A DNA stretch of 10,511 bases. Origin: Desulfatitalea sp. Lineage in GTDB: Bacteria; Desulfobacterota; Desulfobacteria; Desulfobacterales; Desulfosarcinaceae. The notes under the pieces are model-generated. The model saw only the letters and a program-made list of their open reading frames with translations, did no database searches and had not been told where the DNA came from. Position numbers and translations under genes: made by a program. Within the stretch, counting starts at the first letter, position 1. Every line of letters begins with the position of its first letter. This document shows, piece by piece, positions 2,802 to 10,460 of this stretch. Location: the NCBI GenBank assembly GCA_013041835.1, contig JABDRH010000261.1, forward strand, positions 1 to 10,511. Reading direction: 5' to 3'.

Positions 2802-4034
2802 CTAAGCGGCAAGCAACTTGGCAAAATTGAAATCCGAAGCCATCAATGCGGCAGGATCTATATCGAGAGGCACACCATTTTCGATAAGGGCGCGCAGCAC
2901 GCCCCCCTGCTCGATATGGTTGATCAAAATAGCACCCACGAGCAAATTGCCCCTGAAGACTAGACTGCGGTAAAAACCTTTGCCCACGCCACCGGATCGA
3001 AGGATGCGCAAAGGCGCATCCGCTGGTGGGTTGGCATAACCCAGGGTCATCACATCCAAGTCGTAAATGCGCATCACATTGCGACTGAGGCTGCCCGGGT
3101 AAGCCACCGCACGGCCGGCCATGTTAAAACCGGCGATGCGGCCCTGTGCGGCGGCCTCGGGCCAAATGGCATTGACCCAACGGCAGCCCCTGGCAATATC
3201 GATGGATTCGGCCACGTCCCCGGCGGCGTAAATTGTGTCGACGCTGGTTTGCAGATGATCGTCCACCAGAATCCCCATGTCCGTTTCAATTCGGTCACGC
3301 GGGACGAACGATTGTGCCGGACGTACGCCTTTGCCGATGACGACCAGGTCGCATGCCAGGCGTTGGCCGTCGTCGGTCAGTGCCGCTTGAACGCGCCCAG
3401 TGCCTTCAAAGGCCGACACACTGGTGCCCACGCGGACGTCAAGACCGTGGTCCAAAAGCCGGTTCAGGATCAAATGACCGGCGGTTTCATCCACCTGCAG
3501 GCTTAGCGGGTAATCGGAGCTTATCAACATGGTCACCGAAAGGCCCCGGCGTAGCAAGCCGTAGGCCGCCTTGAAGCCGACCAGGCCGCCGCCCAGCACC
3601 AGCGCCCGGTGTGCACCCGGCAGGGCTTCAAGCTGGGATTTCACATGAGCCTGGGTGCGCATAAAGAATATATTGGCCAGGTCGAGACCATCGGCATTGA
3701 TGGGCCTTGGGTCGGCGCCCGAAGCGATGAGCAGCCGATCGAATGCCACGCGAACGCCATCTATCAGTTCGACCCAGTTCCCGTCCACATCCAGTCGGAC
3801 CACACGTTGCCCGAGCACAGGCGTAATTTTCAATTCCGAATAGATCGCCGTTCCCCGGATAGGCAGCCTTTCGTGGGGCTGGGATCCTTCCAGCACGTTG
3901 CTGATCATGGGGCGGCTGTAAGGGGGAAAGCTTTCATCGCCGATGAGGGTGATCCGGCCATCCGGATCGAGCGCCCGAATGGCTTCGGCGGCATTGATGC
4001 CGGCAATGCCGTTGCCGATGATCACGTAATGCAT
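2802..4034 (-). CDS. NAD(P)/FAD-dependent oxidoreductase (NirB-N-terminal / rubredoxin-reductase type)
   Basis: A 410-aa flavoprotein that should move electrons between NAD(P)H and a protein partner. The N-terminal FAD site is GNGIAG (7-12), the NAD(P) Rossmann motif is VLGGGLVGFKAA (146-157), and the second FAD motif is TIYAAGDVAES (267-276). There is no CxxxxC redox disulfide, which fits the NirB-like/rubredoxin-reductase class and excludes the lipoamide-dehydrogenase class. An upstream in-frame GTG at 4061 is possible. I chose the ATG at 4034 because AAGGA lies 8 nt before it and the protein then opens directly with the FAD-binding strand MHYVIIGNG. A sigma-70-like promoter lies about 40 bp upstream. 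The downstream regulator is probably co-transcribed. The electron partner is unknown; the nearby flavodoxin is one candidate. Confidence 0.85.
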   Translation of the reverse strand: MHYVIIGNGIAGINAAEAIRALDPDGRITLIGDESFPPYSRPMISNVLEGSQPHERLPIRGTAIYSELKITPVLGQRVVRLDVDGNWVELIDGVRVAFDRLLIASGADPRPINADGLDLANIFFMRTQAHVKSQLEALPGAHRALVLGGGLVGFKAAYGLLRRGLSVTMLISSDYPLSLQVDETAGHLILNRLLDHGLDVRVGTSVSAFEGTGRVQAALTDDGQRLACDLVVIGKGVRPAQSFVPRDRIETDMGILVDDHLQTSVDTIYAAGDVAESIDIARGCRWVNAIWPEAAAQGRIAGFNMAGRAVAYPGSLSRNVMRIYDLDVMTLGYANPPADAPLRILRSGGVGKGFYRSLVFRGNLLVGAILINHIEQGGVLRALIENGVPLDIDPAALMASDFNFAKLLAA

Positions 4035-4075
4035 GAAGGACATCCTTGTTGAAAAAAGCACCTGAAAAATGCGCT

Positions 4076-4105: not shown

Positions 4106-4176
4106 GCCCAAAAACCCGTGTGGACCGCATGGTTTGGATTTCTGCGCAAGCCCTATGGTTGCCGGCTTAGGTTTTA

Positions 4177-4334
4177 GGCGATTGGCGGAAAAGAATATAC
4201 CCTATTGCGCCGGATTTTTTTTCCATCTTCAAGGCGTGTCAAAGGACGCATACGGTCTGTATTCGGCCTGTGACACAACGCACAAGACGGGAAAAAAGAC
4301 AAGCAAGAGGGTATATGCTTTGACAGAAATCGCC
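4177..4334. mobile_element. MITE-like imperfect palindrome, long copy (158 bp)
   Basis: The element begins GGCGATT and ends AATCGCC, and is flanked by TTA on both sides (4174-4176 and 4335-4337). Nested complementary blocks run inward: 4177-4183 with 4328-4334; 4195-4203 (ATATACCCT) with 4308-4316; 4205-4208 with 4303-4306; 4217-4224 (TTTTTTCC) with 4290-4297; 4236-4241 (GTGTCA) with 4271-4276; and 4250-4253 with 4259-4262. The whole element can therefore fold as one long imperfect hairpin. Its right arm recurs, inverted, at 9268-9321. It encodes no convincing protein. It fills much of the non-coding gap 4035-4410, between the FAD oxidoreductase promoter and the flavodoxin gene. A non-autonomous transposon remnant is the best reading; a structured RNA or REP-like repeat is the alternative. 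Confidence 0.72.
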
Positions 4335-4410
4335 TTATGATTACTTTCCAACGCCGGATGGCGCATGACCTCCGGAAACAAAACAGCAAGCCCAGCGAAA
4401 GGAGCACCCC

Positions 4411-4845
4411 ATGGCCAAAGCCCTTATTGTCTATGCCACAAGGACTGGTGAGACCGAGCAGATTGCCAATCTGATTGCCGAAGGCATCCGCATCGGCGGA
4501 CAGGAAGCGGTCGTTGTCAATGCCAATGAAATCAAAAACGAATCCCAGCTCGAGGGCTACGAGGCCCATGTGTTCGGGTCGGCCACTTATCACGGAGGCA
4601 TGATTGAAAGCATGAAGCGCATTTTATTCCTGGCGGAAAAGGCCGATTTGACGGGTCGGGTGGGTGCGGCTTTCGGCGCCTTTGGTTGGAGCGGCGAAGC
4701 CCCTCAACGCATCTATGACACCATGCGGCATATCTTCCACATGGATATGGTCAAGGACGCCTTGCGCCTGAAGTCCGCCGCCCTGGAAGGTGGTGTGCCC
4801 ATGGCCCACGACTATGGCCGCGAAATCGCAACCAAAATGGCGTAA
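4411..4845 (+). CDS. Flavodoxin / flavodoxin-domain protein
   Basis: A single-domain flavodoxin of 144 aa, slightly short of the usual 140-175 range's midpoint. The FMN phosphate loop is TRTGETE (10-16). SATYHGG (57-63) and the GAFGWSGEA segment (89-97) are the expected positions of the two isoalloxazine-contacting loops. Flavodoxins shuttle one electron at low potential in the cytoplasm, replacing ferredoxin. The similarity is closest to the flavodoxin domain of FprA-type flavodiiron proteins (GxFGWSGEA pattern). An AAAGGAG Shine-Dalgarno sits 6 nt before the ATG. It is the only plus-strand gene in the left half, faces the minus-strand glycosyltransferase gene convergently across 24 bp, and is divergent from the FAD oxidoreductase. 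A clean promoter was not found; the palindromic element lies just upstream. Confidence 0.9.
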   Translation: MAKALIVYATRTGETEQIANLIAEGIRIGGQEAVVVNANEIKNESQLEGYEAHVFGSATYHGGMIESMKRILFLAEKADLTGRVGAAFGAFGWSGEAPQRIYDTMRHIFHMDMVKDALRLKSAALEGGVPMAHDYGREIATKMA

Positions 4846-4869
4846 GCCGACCCTATCCCGGGATCGCCA

Positions 4870-6456
4870 TTACTGACAGCATTTCTTGAATTTCTTGCCG
4901 CTGCCGCAGGGGCAGGGATCGTTACGTCCCACTTTGGGGCCCTTGCGCAGCGCCTGTTCGACCTTTGGCATCCGGCCGTCAACGAAATACCACCGTTCTT
5001 CGTGTTTCTTGAATTCGGCAATTTCACGGTGCTCGACCTTCTTGCCCTTTTGACGGTATCTGGCGGTGAACTCCACTACCCCCGTTTCGTCCTCCGGTCC
5101 ACCGGCTTGCGCATCAATGATTTCAAGCCCCAACCACAGGGCATTTTTGGCCCATGATTGGATGGATTCCCGCTTGAGATCTTCGCGCTGGTCGGGGTGC
5201 GTGGTTTCGACGATGTAGTCCACCGCCGACTTGACATGGGCCGTGTATCGGGAGCGCATCAACGCTTCAGCCGTCAGCGCTGGCCGCTGCCCCTGAATCA
5301 AGGGTTCACAACAATTACAATAGGCTTGACCGCTGCCACAGGGGCAAGTTTCCATGGTTCTGCTCCTTTGATCGGCTTCATGATACATTTCCATCAGAAT
5401 CCGGGCCACCGTATCGGCGCCGTTCTCATTGGGTTGGGGAACTTTTTCCAGCGTTAACAACTCAGGCAGCATGGCCAACCATTGCCCTTGGTTGTAAACG
5501 TCAGCGCTGATGCTTCTGGACGGCAAATGGGTAGTGATGAAACGTTCCAGAGCCGGTGATTCCGCCGATTCGCAGCGAGGAATGTAGCCAAAGGGCACCC
5601 CTGCCTGGTACGCCTCGGCAATCGTGCTGTAGCCGGCTTTGCCGATAAGCAGGTCGGCGGCCGCCAGCAGATCCGGATGATAAAAGCGCGAGTGGGTGGG
5701 CAGCAAGGTGATGTGGGGATGATTGCTGCGCAAGCCGTTGGCGCTGGGCACGACCAGGTGCGCCGGCAGGTCCTTCGAAGTGTGGGTCAGGAAGTGAAAT
5801 TGATCGGGGATCCCTCCCATACTGACCAGCACCATCTTGCGGTTATCGGCAATGTTCAATGCCCTGCGAATACGCGCGGCCGGTGTGCGGGGCGATCGGC
5901 TCACCGGCGACACCACACTCGCCCCTGCCGCCGGCCGGCAGATCGGCTCACACTGAATATGCAGATCCGCCTGGGCGTATATATGCTTCAAGTAATCGGC
6001 AAACATTTCCAGCCCGGATGCTTGTTCCAGGCAGGACGCGTAGATGAAATCCCAGGTGAAATTCTCGATGAGCACGCTGGGCAGGCCGGCGCCTTGGGCC
6101 ACAACGATGCCAAGGGCCGAAATGTCGCACACGATCAACCGGCAACCCGATTTTTGCACCTGTTCCACCAGGCTCGAAACCGTACCGGGATCAAAGGGCA
6201 TAAGGCGATTCAACGCCTGTACGGTCGCATCCAAATCCACTTCTATGGGTGAGCGTTGCACCATACCCACATCGTTTCGAATCTCATGATAGCCGAAATC
6301 GCCACCAAGGGAGTCGCTGAAGATCCATTGGGGGCTAGTGGTGAACAGCTCAAAGCGGATATCACCGACCTGGCGCGCCAGAGCCGCCATGATCGCGGCG
6401 GAGCGGCTGGCATGACCGAACCCATGGTCGGTGATGAAATAGGCGATGTGCATCAT
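4870..6456 (-). CDS. Fusion protein: GT-B glycosyltransferase-like domain + YchJ (UPF0225) domain
   Basis: The protein has 528 aa in two parts. Residues 1 to about 355 are a GT-B-like glycosyltransferase: DHGFGHASR (10-18) is the N-terminal loop seen in MurG-like enzymes and in the N-terminal part of L-arabinokinases, and [19 protein letters not shown] (271-289) is the C-terminal donor-site motif. Residues 368-528 form a complete YchJ/UPF0225 protein: SEC-C motif [13 protein letters not shown] (371-383), then [10 protein letters not shown] (399-408), the central NTF2-like part with WLGLEI and RWYFVDG, and a second SEC-C motif [17 protein letters not shown] (511-527). SEC-C motifs bind zinc; YchJ function is not established. 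The start ATG abuts the TAA of the upstream M48 gene, and a second ATG follows at once. The sugar substrate cannot be read from the sequence. Confidence 0.82.
5353..5369 (-). promoter_or_regulatory. Internal ribosome binding site and ATG at the YchJ junction
   Basis: Inside the fusion gene, AAAGGAG (minus strand, 5369-5363) stands 7 nt before an in-frame ATG at 5355. The ATG encodes Met368, three residues before the first CPCGSG motif. Translation from here would yield a free YchJ protein of 161 aa, close to the length of standalone YchJ. Whether it is used cannot be told from sequence alone. Confidence 0.5.
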
Positions 6457-7272
6457 TTATCTGCCCTGGTAGTACTGCAGCGCTTCCGGCAGATGGCGTT
6501 GGATATCCGTCACGCGGGTACCGGGCGCCGGGTGGGTGGAAAGAAGTTCAGGAGGGCGCTGCCCACCGCCGCTTTGGGCCATGCGCTGCCAGAAGGGAAC
6601 GGCGGCACGGGGATCATAGCCGGCCTTGGCCATGAGCACCAGGCCGATGCGGTCGGCTTCGCTTTCATGCAGGCGGCTGTAAGGCAGCAGCAAACCGACA
6701 TTGGCGCCGATGCCATAAGCGGACATGAATAGGTTTTGGGTTTCGGCGGGCTGTTTCGCCACGGCCACGGACAGCGCCATGCCACCCAATTGGGTGAGCA
6801 ATCCCTGGCTCATACGTTCATTGCCGTGGTTGGCGATGGCGTGCCCCACCTCGTGGCCCAGGACCACGGCCAGCCCGGTTTCGTCCTGGGTGTACTTCAG
6901 GATGCCGGTGTACACCGCCGCCTTTCCGCCCGGCAGTACCCAAGCGTTGGCCTTCTCGTTGTCTTCGATCAGATTAAACTCCCAGTTGAACGAACCGGTC
7001 AGGTCGGCGCGACCGGATTCGCTCAGGAAATTTTCGGCGGCATTGGCGATGCGCATGCCCACCTTACGCACCATGGCGGTTTGAGCCTTATCCGTAGCGA
7101 GCTTGCTCTCCTTTAAGGTTTGATCGTATTGTTGCACGCTCATGCTGGCAAGCTGGCTGTTGGACACCAACTGTAGGCTGCTGCGGCCGGTAACAGGCAC
7201 CTGGGTGCAGGCCAGCAGCACGCAAAAAGCGACGGCGGCTGAAAGCTTGATCCAAGGCGACGGTTTTTTCAT
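6457..7272 (-). CDS. M48-family zinc metalloprotease, lipoprotein
   Basis: A 271-aa predicted lipoprotein of the M48 (LoiP/BepA/Oma1-like) family, which degrades or checks misfolded envelope proteins. A short basic N-terminus and a hydrophobic stretch end in the lipobox LLAC (19-22), so the mature protein starts with Cys22. The zinc site is HEVGH (140-144), with the third ligand E203 in HESEAD (202-207). NAWVLPGG (109-116) and STHPAPGTRV (245-254) are further family signatures. The frame is open to 7347, but I chose the ATG at 7272: AAGGA lies 7 nt before it and the signal peptide starts there. It is directly followed by the glycosyltransferase-YchJ gene (TAA then ATG, no gap), so the two are almost surely co-transcribed. 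The lipobox has no Asp at +2 (it is Thr), so outer-membrane sorting is expected. Confidence 0.92.
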   Translation of the reverse strand: MKKPSPWIKLSAAVAFCVLLACTQVPVTGRSSLQLVSNSQLASMSVQQYDQTLKESKLATDKAQTAMVRKVGMRIANAAENFLSESGRADLTGSFNWEFNLIEDNEKANAWVLPGGKAAVYTGILKYTQDETGLAVVLGHEVGHAIANHGNERMSQGLLTQLGGMALSVAVAKQPAETQNLFMSAYGIGANVGLLLPYSRLHESEADRIGLVLMAKAGYDPRAAVPFWQRMAQSGGGQRPPELLSTHPAPGTRVTDIQRHLPEALQYYQGR

Positions 7273-7359
7273 GAGACGATCCTTTCTCATTGTTGGAACG
7301 TGGACAAGGCGTCGTCGACGTTCGTGTGGTCGCAACAAACGAAACATGCTGGGCCGAAT

Positions 7360-7761
7360 TCAGCGGGCCAGATCGATCACCAAAGGAACGACATGCAATT
7401 CCCGGCGCTTTTCGCTGGTGTTTCCCAGTTGCCAGCCGCGACAGCGGCCGTGACCGCCCATAAGTTCGTCGATGCGGTCAACGATGCCCTGGATGTTGAT
7501 CACAGGGTGGCGGGACAAGACACTGGGTAGTCCGTAAGTCAGATTGCATGCCAGACATTTACCTGGCCGCTGGTGCAATTCCAGGTCGAAATAGAGCTTA
7601 TCAGCTTCAAAACGATTGAAAGTCAAACGAATATCGTAAGCCCCTTCTGCCGCATCACCCAACAGGGCATCGAAAAAGTCATCCGTGCGGGCGGCGGGCA
7701 GCAGGTCTTCCAGCATCTGACGGGTGAAAATAGCGGTAACGGTTTCGTGGTCGTCTTTCAT
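7360..7761 (-). CDS. Conserved-looking hypothetical protein with a CxxC motif
   Basis: The product is 133 aa and I cannot assign it to a named family with confidence. It opens MKDDHETVTAIFTRQMLEDLLPAARTD, has an acidic first half, and holds a compact block PGKCLACNLTYGLP near residues 66-79, followed by LSRHPVINIQGIVDRID. The CxxC could bind metal or act in redox chemistry; a third cysteine lies in HGRCRGW. There is no signal peptide or membrane segment, so it should be cytoplasmic. It is the first gene after the promoter at 7809-7838 and precedes the M48 gene by 87 bp on the same strand. A weak Shine-Dalgarno (AAGGA, 10 nt upstream) supports the ATG at 7761. Confidence 0.7.
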   Translation of the reverse strand: MKDDHETVTAIFTRQMLEDLLPAARTDDFFDALLGDAAEGAYDIRLTFNRFEADKLYFDLELHQRPGKCLACNLTYGLPSVLSRHPVINIQGIVDRIDELMGGHGRCRGWQLGNTSEKRRELHVVPLVIDLAR

Positions 7762-7808
7762 GGTGAATCAATCCTTGTCTTGGGGTCAGCATGAAGAATC
7801 AACCATCG

Positions 7809-7838
7809 TCTATAAAGAAATTCCTGATTCAATGTCAA
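7809..7838 (-). promoter_or_regulatory. Sigma-70 promoter of the hypothetical-M48-glycosyltransferase/YchJ unit
   Basis: On the minus strand a perfect -35 TTGACA (7838-7833) is followed after 18 bp by TATAGA (7814-7809), four of six to the -10 consensus. Transcription would begin near 7802 and give a leader of about 40 nt before the ATG at 7761. This is the best sigma-70 promoter match I found in the window. Confidence 0.6.
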
Positions 7839-7868
7839 TACGTGATCATAGAATGGCCGCATTGAGAA

Positions 7869-7880
7869 TGCATCGATGCA
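7869..7880. promoter_or_regulatory. 12-bp perfect palindrome upstream of the promoter (possible operator)
   Basis: TGCATCGATGCA is its own reverse complement. It lies about 30 bp upstream of the -35 box of the minus-strand promoter at 7809-7838, and between that promoter and the end of the YkgJ-type gene. The position fits an activator site. No known regulator is matched. Confidence 0.3.
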
Positions 7881-7908
7881 CATCGACCAAGGGGCCATCC
7901 CTTCGCAC

Positions 7909-8610
7909 TCACCGGTCAAATCCTGGACACCCCGTCATCATGGCGTGTTTGCGACTCACTGGATAATTGCGGCAGATCCAGGGTTTAACGTCATGAATGG
8001 CGCACCGGTATTGATCAGGCGTGCGACCCTGCTTAAGGAACGGACAGATGCCGGCCGGTTGGTTGGTGCCGGGAACAACCCACATACGGTAACGGGCTTT
8101 GCCCTCACCGGTCCGGGTGATGCCAACCCACTTGAGCACGTCCTTGCGGCCCAGCGTCTCAAGCCGCGCCGCGTCCCCGGCCGTCATGCCGTCTTTGTAG
8201 TCCAACTCACGGCAACAACGCCCGCAGCGGCGGCATTGGAATTCGGCCATATCGGTTTCCAGCACGATATGCCATCGTACGCCGTCGGTAGCTGGCGCCA
8301 CGCGGCTGGGGATTTGGAAGACCCGGCGGCATAGCACGACAAGCTGTTCAGAGGACAAATCGCTGTGCAGGATGAGCCGGCACATGAACTCGATCAGGTC
8401 GGTATCGGCGAGATATCGTAATCGGCTGCCGCCGTCGTCCGACACCCAGATCCCTGCATGACCCGGTTCCCGTTTGTAGGTTATCCTCCCGGCAAACAAG
8501 GTCCTCAAGATTTCACTAAATAACAGCGTTTGCGGCGAATACCCTCGAAAATCGAGGCAAACGGCGCTTATGGCCTGCTCCGGGCTAAGTTGGATCTCCT
8601 CGTGCTGCAA
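7909..8610 (-). CDS. YkgJ-family cysteine cluster protein (Zn/Fe-binding, UPF0153-like)
   Basis: A 233-aa protein. The C-terminal half is the YkgJ cysteine cluster: CRRCGRCC (126-133), then ICPFL (188-192), YRCAIHDVKPWICRNYPV (201-218) and a last cysteine C228. Together these give eight cysteines of the kind annotated as a zinc- or iron-chelating domain, often predicted to be Fe-S. Residues 1 to about 115 form an extra N-terminal region with no motif I recognise. The start is a TTG at 8610, chosen because a strong Shine-Dalgarno (AAGGGAGG) lies 6 nt upstream. The biochemical role of the family is not settled. The gene stands alone on the minus strand and is divergent from the CBS-domain gene across 193 bp. 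Confidence 0.87.
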   Translation of the reverse strand: MQHEEIQLSPEQAISAVCLDFRGYSPQTLLFSEILRTLFAGRITYKREPGHAGIWVSDDGGSRLRYLADTDLIEFMCRLILHSDLSSEQLVVLCRRVFQIPSRVAPATDGVRWHIVLETDMAEFQCRRCGRCCRELDYKDGMTAGDAARLETLGRKDVLKWVGITRTGEGKARYRMWVVPGTNQPAGICPFLKQGRTPDQYRCAIHDVKPWICRNYPVSRKHAMMTGCPGFDR

Positions 8611-8764
8611 CGCCGACCTCCCTTCGATTACCGAGCATCACCGAATGGTGTATTTGACATTGCCACCGCTATCATCATACGTTTGACCATAAACATGCCA
8701 CACGGCATCGTCCATTGCTTTCTTTCACAAGCCTTGGCAAGATGCAGTGCAAAGCGGATCACAA

Positions 8765-8784
8765 CATCGGCAAACCCGCCGATG
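8765..8784 (+). promoter_or_regulatory. GC-rich inverted repeat just ahead of the CBS-gene ribosome binding site
   Basis: CATCGGC (8765-8771) and GCCGATG (8778-8784) are perfectly complementary around a 6-base loop. The hairpin ends about 6 nt before the AAGGAG Shine-Dalgarno of the CBS gene. It could be an operator or a leader hairpin affecting translation. Confidence 0.35.
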
Positions 8785-8803
8785 GCATCCAAGGAGAATC
8801 GCC

Positions 8804-9268
8804 ATGCTCACAGCAGCACAAATCATGACCACGGAACTGATTACGTTATCCCCTGAAACCGATATCGCCCAAGCGGCCAGAGTTCTGCTGGACAACGGGA
8901 TCAACGGCGCCCCGGTGGTTGATGACCAGGGCCGGCTTGTGGGTATTTTGTGCCAGAGCGATCTGGTGGTACAGCAAAAACGGATTCCGATGCCCACGGT
9001 ATTTACACTGTTGGACAGCTATGTGTCACTGACGTCCACAAAGCAGTGGGAAAAGCAGATCCGGAAAATTTCCGCGCTCACCGTTGCCGAAGCCATGACC
9101 CCGGACCCGGTTACCATAACAGGCCAAACGCCATTGGATGATATCGCGGGTCTGATGGTGGATAACAACTTGCACACCTTGCCGGTAGTGGACGACGACC
9201 GCCTGGTCGGCATCATCGGCAAGGAGGATGTCTTGCGAACGCTGTTGGGTTCACCCAAAGCGCATTAG
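8804..9268 (+). CDS. Two-CBS-domain protein
   Basis: A 154-aa protein made of two CBS motifs: residues about 6-56 (AAQIMTTELITLSP to VGILCQSDL) and about 96-147 (AEAMTPDPVTI to VGIIGKEDVL). About 40 residues separate them, including RIPMPTVFTLLDSYV. Paired CBS motifs form a Bateman module that usually binds adenine nucleotides and reports energy or redox state. No catalytic domain is attached, so its partner is unknown. I chose the ATG at 8804 over an upstream ATG at 8747, because AAGGAG lies 7 nt before it and the first CBS motif begins there. The TAG stop is shared with the end of the short palindromic element: TA comes from the flanking TTA and G is the first base of the element. Confidence 0.9.
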   Translation: MLTAAQIMTTELITLSPETDIAQAARVLLDNGINGAPVVDDQGRLVGILCQSDLVVQQKRIPMPTVFTLLDSYVSLTSTKQWEKQIRKISALTVAEAMTPDPVTITGQTPLDDIAGLMVDNNLHTLPVVDDDRLVGIIGKEDVLRTLLGSPKAH

Positions 9269-9321
9269 GCGATTTCTGTCAAAAAAAACCCTCTTTCTTG
9301 TCTTTTTTCCCGCCAATCGCC
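9268..9321. mobile_element. MITE-like element, short copy (54 bp), inverted relative to the long copy
   Basis: It begins GGCGATT, ends AATCGCC, and is flanked by TTA on both sides (9265-9267 and 9322-9324), exactly as the long copy is. Read on the plus strand it matches the reverse complement of the long copy's right arm: GGCGATTTCTGTCAAA is identical, then an A-rich spacer differs, then CCCTCTT-CTTGTCTTTTTTCCCG matches apart from single-base changes. Its other end carries GGCGATTGGCGG, the left end of the long copy. It thus looks like an internally deleted relative. It separates the CBS gene from the 48-aa gene. Confidence 0.72.
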
Positions 9322-9341
9322 TTAGCAAAGGGATGCCATCA

Positions 9342-9809: not shown

Positions 9810-10460
9810 ATGAAAAAGATCATCTTGTTATTTGTCGGAATCATTGCACTGACGTTCGCGAACACAGCATTTGCACTTCAAATCGATTTTACCGACGCAA
9901 GCAAATGGAGTGCCGCGGACGGCAAAAACAGCTATACGGCCGATTACGGCAATCTGAGCGTGAAAGCCTCGGCGCTCCCGCTCTTAAAGAAATTGTCCTA
10001 TCAAACAGACGGCATGGGGGTTTCCGGTTGGATCGGCGGAGACGATGAAATCGGGCTGAAAGAAATGATATCGCTGAGCTTTTTCTCGAATTTGGGCGAA
10101 TTGAAAAGCGTTTTGATTTCCTCGTTCACCGTATCCGATTTGTTTGAAAATGAATTTTTCTGTGCGGACGAAGAGGGCGGATTCAAATATTCACCCGGCG
10201 GGTTACCGACAATCTTTAGCCCTGCAGATGGGGATTACAATCCGGATGGCGGCATCTTAACGTATCATTTTGATCAACCCGTCGCTGCCGCAAACTTCAC
10301 TTTCTTTGGTGTTAAGTCTTTATTCGGATGGAAGGATTTCGCCATTCAAAGCCTAGACTTGGTGGATGTAGCATCTGTTCCCGAACCGGCCACCATGTTG
10401 TTGTTCGGAACCGGTCTGATCGGCATTGCCGGCGTGTCACGCAAAAAGTTTCTTAGATAG
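9810..10460 (+). CDS. Secreted PEP-CTERM domain protein
   Basis: A 216-aa exported protein. Residues 1-22 are a Sec signal peptide ending in AFA (MKKIILLFVGIIALTFANTAFA). The C-terminus is a clear PEP-CTERM sorting tail: VPEPATMLLFGTGLIGIAGVSRKKFLR, with the PEP motif at 191-193, a hydrophobic span, then a basic end. Such tails are cut by an exosortase, usually encoded next to exopolysaccharide genes elsewhere in the genome; none is in this window. The middle part has no motif I recognise; it is rich in Ser, Phe and Gly and looks beta-rich. The ATG follows a run of seven Gs (9801-9807) acting as Shine-Dalgarno. The gene is visibly more A/T-rich than its neighbours. Its role in surface or matrix structure is inferred from the family. 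Confidence 0.92.
   Translation: MKKIILLFVGIIALTFANTAFALQIDFTDASKWSAADGKNSYTADYGNLSVKASALPLLKKLSYQTDGMGVSGWIGGDDEIGLKEMISLSFFSNLGELKSVLISSFTVSDLFENEFFCADEEGGFKYSPGGLPTIFSPADGDYNPDGGILTYHFDQPVAAANFTFFGVKSLFGWKDFAIQSLDLVDVASVPEPATMLLFGTGLIGIAGVSRKKFLR

Follow-up and report, generated by a model that had tools for sequence, protein, structure and literature searches.

A covarying hairpin core shared by short non-autonomous transposons with different ends in several bacterial phyla

The stretch of Desulfatitalea sp. DNA analyzed here (contig JABDRH010000261.1, 10,511 nucleotides, hereafter the window) carries two short repeats of 158 and 54 bp, which raise the question of whether they are mobile and what preserves their interior. 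A preliminary description made from the sequence had noted that the repeats have common ends, lie in opposite orientation, are flanked by TTA on both sides and encode no protein. Direct reading agrees with each of these statements. The 158-bp copy starts with GGCGATTGGCGG (A end), finishes with the reverse complement of GGCGATTTCTGTCAAA (B end), and is almost entirely a single long imperfect palindrome. The 54-bp copy contains both of these ends in the opposite orientation, with the same 7-bp tip. A 139-aa open reading frame (ORF) on the opposite strand overlaps the 158-bp element; it is only an open frame and its overlap is incidental. We found that both repeats are non-autonomous DNA transposons (miniature inverted-repeat transposable elements, MITEs) which duplicate TWA (W, A or T), and that the longer one contains a conserved, covarying hairpin core shared across phyla by elements with different types of ends. 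In our judgment, these elements are quite probably MITEs moved in trans by several transposases and sharing one strand-specific, RNA-like core, with an ISAzo13 transposase as the most likely mover of the class found in the window (class I).

The host's draft genome, in which the window is contig C490, has a size of 4.32 Mb in 693 contigs and is 86.9% complete. The B end, with at most two mismatches, was found 40 times in this genome and once with a reversed-pattern control, and the A end 45 times versus 10 for its control. Because these counts are far above the controls, the shared ends are not due to chance. Pairing of A and B ends gave 23 stretches. Of these, 13 measure 152-160 bp, seven 40-55 bp and one 135 bp; the remaining two (268 and 364 bp) had their left end wrongly set by the script. 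The host also has truncated copies and lone ends. Its element matches, like the family-wide matches to the covariance model described below, include antisense hits of the same palindromes. A complete related genome of 7.63 Mb (G023) contains 84 B ends (control, 3) and 91 sites that fit TWA-GGCGATT-N6-AAA (control, 0). The repeats thus belong to a multicopy family, as the preliminary description had supposed.

We examined the flanks of 49 G023 elements of 150-165 bp which were located by their ends alone, with no flank demanded. The flanking triplets were identical in 40 of them, as compared to a mean of 19.9 and a maximum of 30 in 2000 shuffles. Paralogous empty sites were also found, tandem and self matches being left aside. 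The element in L139 is missing from L164 and L155 (91% identity over 150 bp, one gap off the junction), that in L146 is missing from L161 (91% over 124 bp, gap-free), and the one in L190, which is nested inside another element of the superfamily, has empty counterparts in L176 and L155 (98%). Each of these empty sites bears one TTA only. G002, a genome of the same genus, lacks an element at the orthologous gene pair that marks the site of the 54-bp copy, and a blast search for the 158-bp element in 10 genomes of the genus other than the host's gave no match. The exact TWA duplications and the single-TTA empty sites identify both repeats as MITEs, and the mobility of the elements is well supported. 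The non-autonomous transposon family and the 3-bp target duplication proposed from the window alone are supported, the duplication in the wider form TWA, and empty sites, suggested there as a check, were found as paralogous loci of G023. Lone B ends of about 16-28 bp, followed by TWA or TCA, were seen in G023 at L149, L150, L161, L162, L167 and L194 with no partner end within 400 bp; they are surprisingly well conserved and are possibly deletion relics.

The fold of the core, which is about 114 nt long, is a single long, interrupted hairpin whose internal loops (CAAGGC / AACGCAG; GACAAG) are conserved. An alignment of 22 cores gave a structure of 30 pairs, 20 of which have changes on both sides. 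Among 102 distinct sequences, all of which were used for the covariation count, 90.2% of the pairs are standard and 26 of 30 show changes on both sides. The covariation was 0.507, compared to 0.154 ± 0.006 after shuffling and at most 0.107 with slid partners. Compensatory base changes of the kind expected of a structured RNA are thus present. The inner helix lies entirely inside the unspecified part of the pattern with which many of these loci were retrieved, so the retrieval did not create its covariation. In the pattern-scan rows, CAAGGC, AACGC and AAAAAG are invariant, which is partly a product of that retrieval; among 19 loci of other genomes which came from a pattern-free model search of the phylum and were read by eye, CAAGGC is present in 15 and AACGC in 14. 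With the window and 18 loci as queries, no Rfam 15 family model covers the core, and the literature that we searched contains no description of it or of a matching element. The suggestion that the family is perhaps undescribed holds to the extent of that search. As a separate observation, cobalamin riboswitch matches merely overlap the element edge in L092 and L277; at L092:1616-2058 there are two such matches in inverted orientation, one of them across the element's end.

With a covariance model (R1) built from class I alone, the core was detected in 18 of the 30 family genomes. In the phylum, 22 of 297 genomes sampled had a match, the host's own included, and these represent 16 of 199 genera. 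The same-genus genomes G001, G005, G006, G008 and G010 have R1 matches that belong to other classes of core element, the window's type being absent from them. A pattern scan of named genomes gave at least 120 loci. Among the 80 matches listed are Desulfobacterota, methanotrophic and other Gammaproteobacteria including Bathymodiolus symbionts, Mariprofundaceae, Rhodospirillales, Saprospiraceae and other Bacteroidetes, Clostridia (Ruminococcus, Oscillospiraceae) and Binatia. R1 at E ≤ 1e-4 matches 78 of these 80 loci, a result which by itself is not independent of the pattern as the two have loop motifs in common. Many hosts carry several or dozens of copies of the core. No blastn match was obtained in plasmids, phages or E. 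coli for the elements tried, and two exact patterns gave no hit in viral contigs.

The ends of these elements are much less uniform than the core. In four relatives (G025, G019, G021 and G024) the same interior has other ends (GGGCCTCGGAAATAATTAAATCCAC or near it), and class I ends vary by host; the left end of one element from the Gammaproteobacteria (L331) is of the type seen in the window. Class I elements are 156-160 bp long in 121 of 125 distinct cases; the finder took only elements of 150-165 bp that had TWA on the left and no more than one mismatch on the right, so that both lengths and duplications are conditional on it. Among 110 class I ends, AAATAA lies within bases 10-21 in 69 (at base 13 or 14 in 62) and within bases 31-42 in none. 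Class II elements are 139-142 bp long, with ends GGGTRYCTTG or GGCTACCTC and a bigger hairpin. Their 4-bp duplication is exact in 11 of 17, a set that includes L272 and L274, both without the duplicate; 5000 shuffles never gave more than 5. In five of six elements of a third kind, TA lies on either side; since nearly all of the flanks are TA, shuffling cannot test this duplication. Class II loci are still matched by R1, with E from 2e-10 to 5e-6. One core is thus common to elements that have unrelated ends and differ in target duplication, with two types at least and probably three (TWA, 4 bp and TA). Target duplications of differing size point to different transposases as the movers of the classes. 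For the same reasons, the core is probably not the binding site of one transposase.

The 54-bp copy, read in the orientation of the long copy, has the A tip joined to the 3' arm, and the join falls between CGGAAAA and CGGGAAAA. Its sequence supports the proposal, already made in the preliminary description, that it arose by an internal deletion, which probably would have occurred by slippage between these two short direct repeats. Two 55-bp relatives in the host have the same junction within a base, and other core-less forms, found in G023 (two of 36 bp) and in Methylomonas (56 and 66 bp), show that deletions of this sort have happened repeatedly. The flanking triplets are identical in three of the seven short host forms. 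Core-less forms are either mobile themselves or produced by a recurring identical deletion. Such forms of 36-66 bp with the same junction at several loci, some with identical triplets, would also fit a core that is the ancestral interior of one transposon family whose ends and target size have drifted, with no separate function, and we have found no function for it. We consider this explanation unlikely, as compensatory changes across phyla need selection and the differing sizes of the target duplications point to different transposases.

The preliminary description had advised a search for a transposase gene with the element's own terminal repeats. No such gene was found; instead, we found an insertion sequence (IS) with the same layout and target duplication. 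This 1942-bp IS in G023 (L474:1049-2990) lies near a lone A end and encodes a DDE_Tnp_ISAZ013 transposase (PF07592, E 3.7e-110), which is preceded by a second ORF of 245-249 aa with no Pfam match. In L134 there is another copy, some 280 bp away from a core element. The ends, set by the two copies, are GGAACAGCCTATAAATAACTTCG and GGGTTCAGTCAGAAATAAGTTCAC, both with AAATAA at base 13, and the flanks are TTA/TTA at one copy and TAA/TAA at the other. Class I elements thus have in common with an IS of the ISAzo13 family the end layout GG-N10-AAATAA and the TTA or TAA duplication; the IS differs in carrying its own genes and in its end sequence, and its 12-base ends were found, among the collected loci, only in its own copies. 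No core was noted in it by inspection, and no R1 search of it was made. Because this IS has the layout and target of class I, an ISAzo13-type transposase is the likely mover of class I. Judged by end layout and target, class I elements appear to work as ISAzo13 elements do; we do not file them as ISAzo13-related members because the end sequence is not common to the PF07592 IS.

Several other partners were considered and set aside. For PF01609 (IS5), 122 matches were found in four genomes and none of the 30 inspected has fitting ends. An IS427-type partner in general is disfavored by PF13340, which matched in just 3 of 16 element-bearing genomes. At eight solo sites of Methylomonas (G352), reading of the ORFs by eye gave an IS630-like ORF 2.4 kb from a truncated end (L438), not flanked by ends. 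Inverted TWA-GG pairs 0.6-3.5 kb apart (at most 5 mismatches in 18) were pairs of separate elements or chance, ISAzo13 ends being invisible to that search, and an apparent end in L205/L215 lies inside a transposase gene. The ORFs listed beside 11 unpaired G023 B ends include no transposase by eye; of 10 unpaired A ends, one is near a Y1_Tnp gene with other repeats and another is near the ISAzo13-type IS. The largest clusters listed among recurrent neighbour genes (645 ORFs) are common families. In Methylomonas G352 (L472:~1590-2360), a CRISPR-like array with the repeat GTTCACTGCCACACAGGCAGCTTAGAAA adjoins a Y1-transposase-like ORF.

The core also differs between its two strands. Paired cells of 98 rows, after removal of duplicates and of four rows (three antisense, one partial), contain 276 G.U and 70 A.C. 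The plus-strand RNA fold is more stable than the minus-strand fold in 55 of 55 representatives, with a mean difference of -16.5 kcal/mol; these were picked by end sequence and some differ by a base or two only. The bias is weaker in the outer 22 bp (63 versus 33). These data fit selection on one strand of the core, which we read as RNA. The asymmetry also fits single-stranded DNA, and a core that acts as DNA, by a hairpin or cruciform recognized in transposition or replication as in IS200/IS605, REP/RAYT and the tyrosine transposases flanked by terminal inverted repeats (TIRYT), would also agree with an element that is a hairpin as a whole. TIRYT are described in PMC3733652, and a G023 locus near an element has a similar arrangement: a Y1_Tnp (PF01797) gene at L466:182-1147, between its own inverted repeats GGGACGTTGTT... 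with TTA ahead. This was the one Y1 gene inspected closely as a tyrosine transposase partner, and it was rejected since its repeats differ from the element ends. Y1/HUH transposition would not be expected to give the 3- and 4-bp target duplications or the single-copy empty sites, the orientation of 52 G023 elements shows no replichore bias (p 0.41, with the origin placed roughly), and it is a DDE-type IS that has the end layout and target of class I. The ISAzo13-type IS slightly raised our confidence in trans-mobilized MITEs with an RNA-like core and lowered it for a core acting as single-stranded DNA, which we regard as improbable, a little more so than the ancestral interior.

We propose that a transposase made elsewhere, for class I most likely of the ISAzo13 family (PF07592), would recognize the terminal repeats of 20-26 bp, and that insertion at T(A/T)A would duplicate these three bases. 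The core would be kept as a one-strand, RNA-like structure. In the most likely view, the core would be transcribed, and as a structured RNA it would engage some host component that is widely conserved; this may favor spread of the element or make it better tolerated in intergenic transcripts. Such a role as RNA is plausible. More tentatively, and with chances that we put somewhat below even, the core may be a mobile structured-RNA module, a protein-free passenger taken up separately by unrelated systems (TWA, 4 bp and TA), with sequence and fold both conserved over several phyla, and acting via a common host component.

A number of observations weigh against the proposal of trans-mobilized MITEs with an RNA-like core. 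Since core-less forms with a common junction have been found repeatedly, movement may not require the core. The host copies alone have exact triplets in 5 of 13, which is not beyond shuffling (mean 3.2, maximum 8). Of the 276 G.U cells, 175 come from three columns, whereas 31 of the 70 A.C cells come from a single doubtful column pair that is probably unpaired; in addition, predicting the structure on the plus strand favors G.U columns. The pattern-scan loci were retrieved by loop motifs, by which motif conservation and part of the R1 score are built in. The evidence for the ISAzo13 type comes from two copies of one IS in one genome, and the window's ends have AAAGAATA where ISAzo13-type ends have AAATAA; they would need an ISAzo13 variant not yet seen. 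The element's own ends were not found on a transposase gene among those inspected in G023 and the other genomes searched, and draft genomes lose such copies. Lastly, the orientation of the elements relative to tandem neighbour genes shows no preference (37 with, 26 against, p 0.21), which argues against a simple cis-regulatory role tied to neighbour orientation. A host-domesticated regulatory hairpin (a terminator or mRNA stabilizer) dispersed by recombination without any transposon is very improbable, since the empty sites already contradict it, together with the target duplications, the nested insertion and the lack of orientation bias, even though a predicted open frame is interrupted by just 8 of the 112 insertions that had sufficient flank, and MITE hairpins can act on neighbouring mRNAs according to the part of PMC2229807 consulted.

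Comparison with known systems gave partial resemblances. IS5-type IS (IS1031 and IS427 groups) and the eukaryotic PIF/Harbinger elements make 3-bp T-N-A or TWA target duplications; the duplication is alike, and no IS with the element's ends was found among those inspected. REP/RAYT and TIRYT are similarly dispersed palindromes with strand asymmetry, whereas the present elements have target duplications; no GTAG or CGTC tag was noted by eye, with no search made for it. In the sections of PMC2229807 seen, RUP, Correia/NEMIS, ERIC and the Caulobacter CIRs are short and ORF-free, with terminal inverted repeats, a target duplication and reported RNA structures; they have mostly TA ends and belong each to one lineage, whereas the window's class duplicates TWA. 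The bcr1 repeats of the Bacillus cereus group are likewise MITE-like and intergenic and are often transcribed within untranslated regions (PMC3446304, in excerpt), whereas the core described here is found in several phyla and with several types of ends. Thiomargarita MITEs differ by their ends, a 10-bp direct repeat or TATAG in the extract of PMC4853749 at hand. The candidate motifs Desulfotalea-1 and Transposase-resistance have no RF accession in the portion of PMC2864571 that we saw; their names suggest overlapping hosts or a mobile context.

Within the window, the features of both elements are collected in Table 1. The 158-bp copy sits between divergent ORFs at 2802-4061 (-) and 4411-4845 (+). 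The TA of the TTA at 9265-9267 and the first base of the 54-bp element form the TAG stop of the ORF at 8747-9268. Further downstream, 9811-10459 (+) encodes a protein whose tail (VPEPATML...GLIG...RKK), by reading, is one that we take to be PEP-CTERM-like.

Table 1. Parts of the two elements and their positions in the window
Feature	Position	Strand	Remark
Left target-site duplicate TTA of the 158-bp element	4174..4176	.	Direct reading; duplication shown on other copies
158-bp full-length class I element: terminal repeat, core, terminal repeat; long imperfect hairpin	4177..4334	+	
A end, terminal repeat GGCGATTGGCGGAAAAGAATATACCC	4177..4202	+	
Conserved structured core, full-length match to covariance model R1, 110.8 bits	4197..4311	+	
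B end, terminal repeat starting GGCGATTTCTGTCAAA on the - strand	4309..4334	-	
Right target-site duplicate TTA of the 158-bp element	4335..4337	.	Direct reading
Target-site duplicate TTA of the short element	9265..9267	.	Direct reading
54-bp internal-deletion derivative: both ends and 3' arm retained, hairpin core gone	9268..9321	-	
Target-site duplicate TTA of the short element	9322..9324	.	Direct reading

MITE families are usually viewed as lineage-specific decay products of one insertion sequence. The main result, which could not be seen from the window alone, is that the interior of these elements is a conserved hairpin core with covariation, common to several phyla and to elements with different types of ends; we did not find this combination described. 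One 114-nt core is present in sulfate reducers, methanotrophs, mussel symbionts, iron oxidizers, Bacteroidota and gut Clostridia, with ends that are host-specific. This implies selection on the interior of transposons which encode no protein, and the core may represent a new class of structured RNA, for which a covariance model is now available to find and test it.

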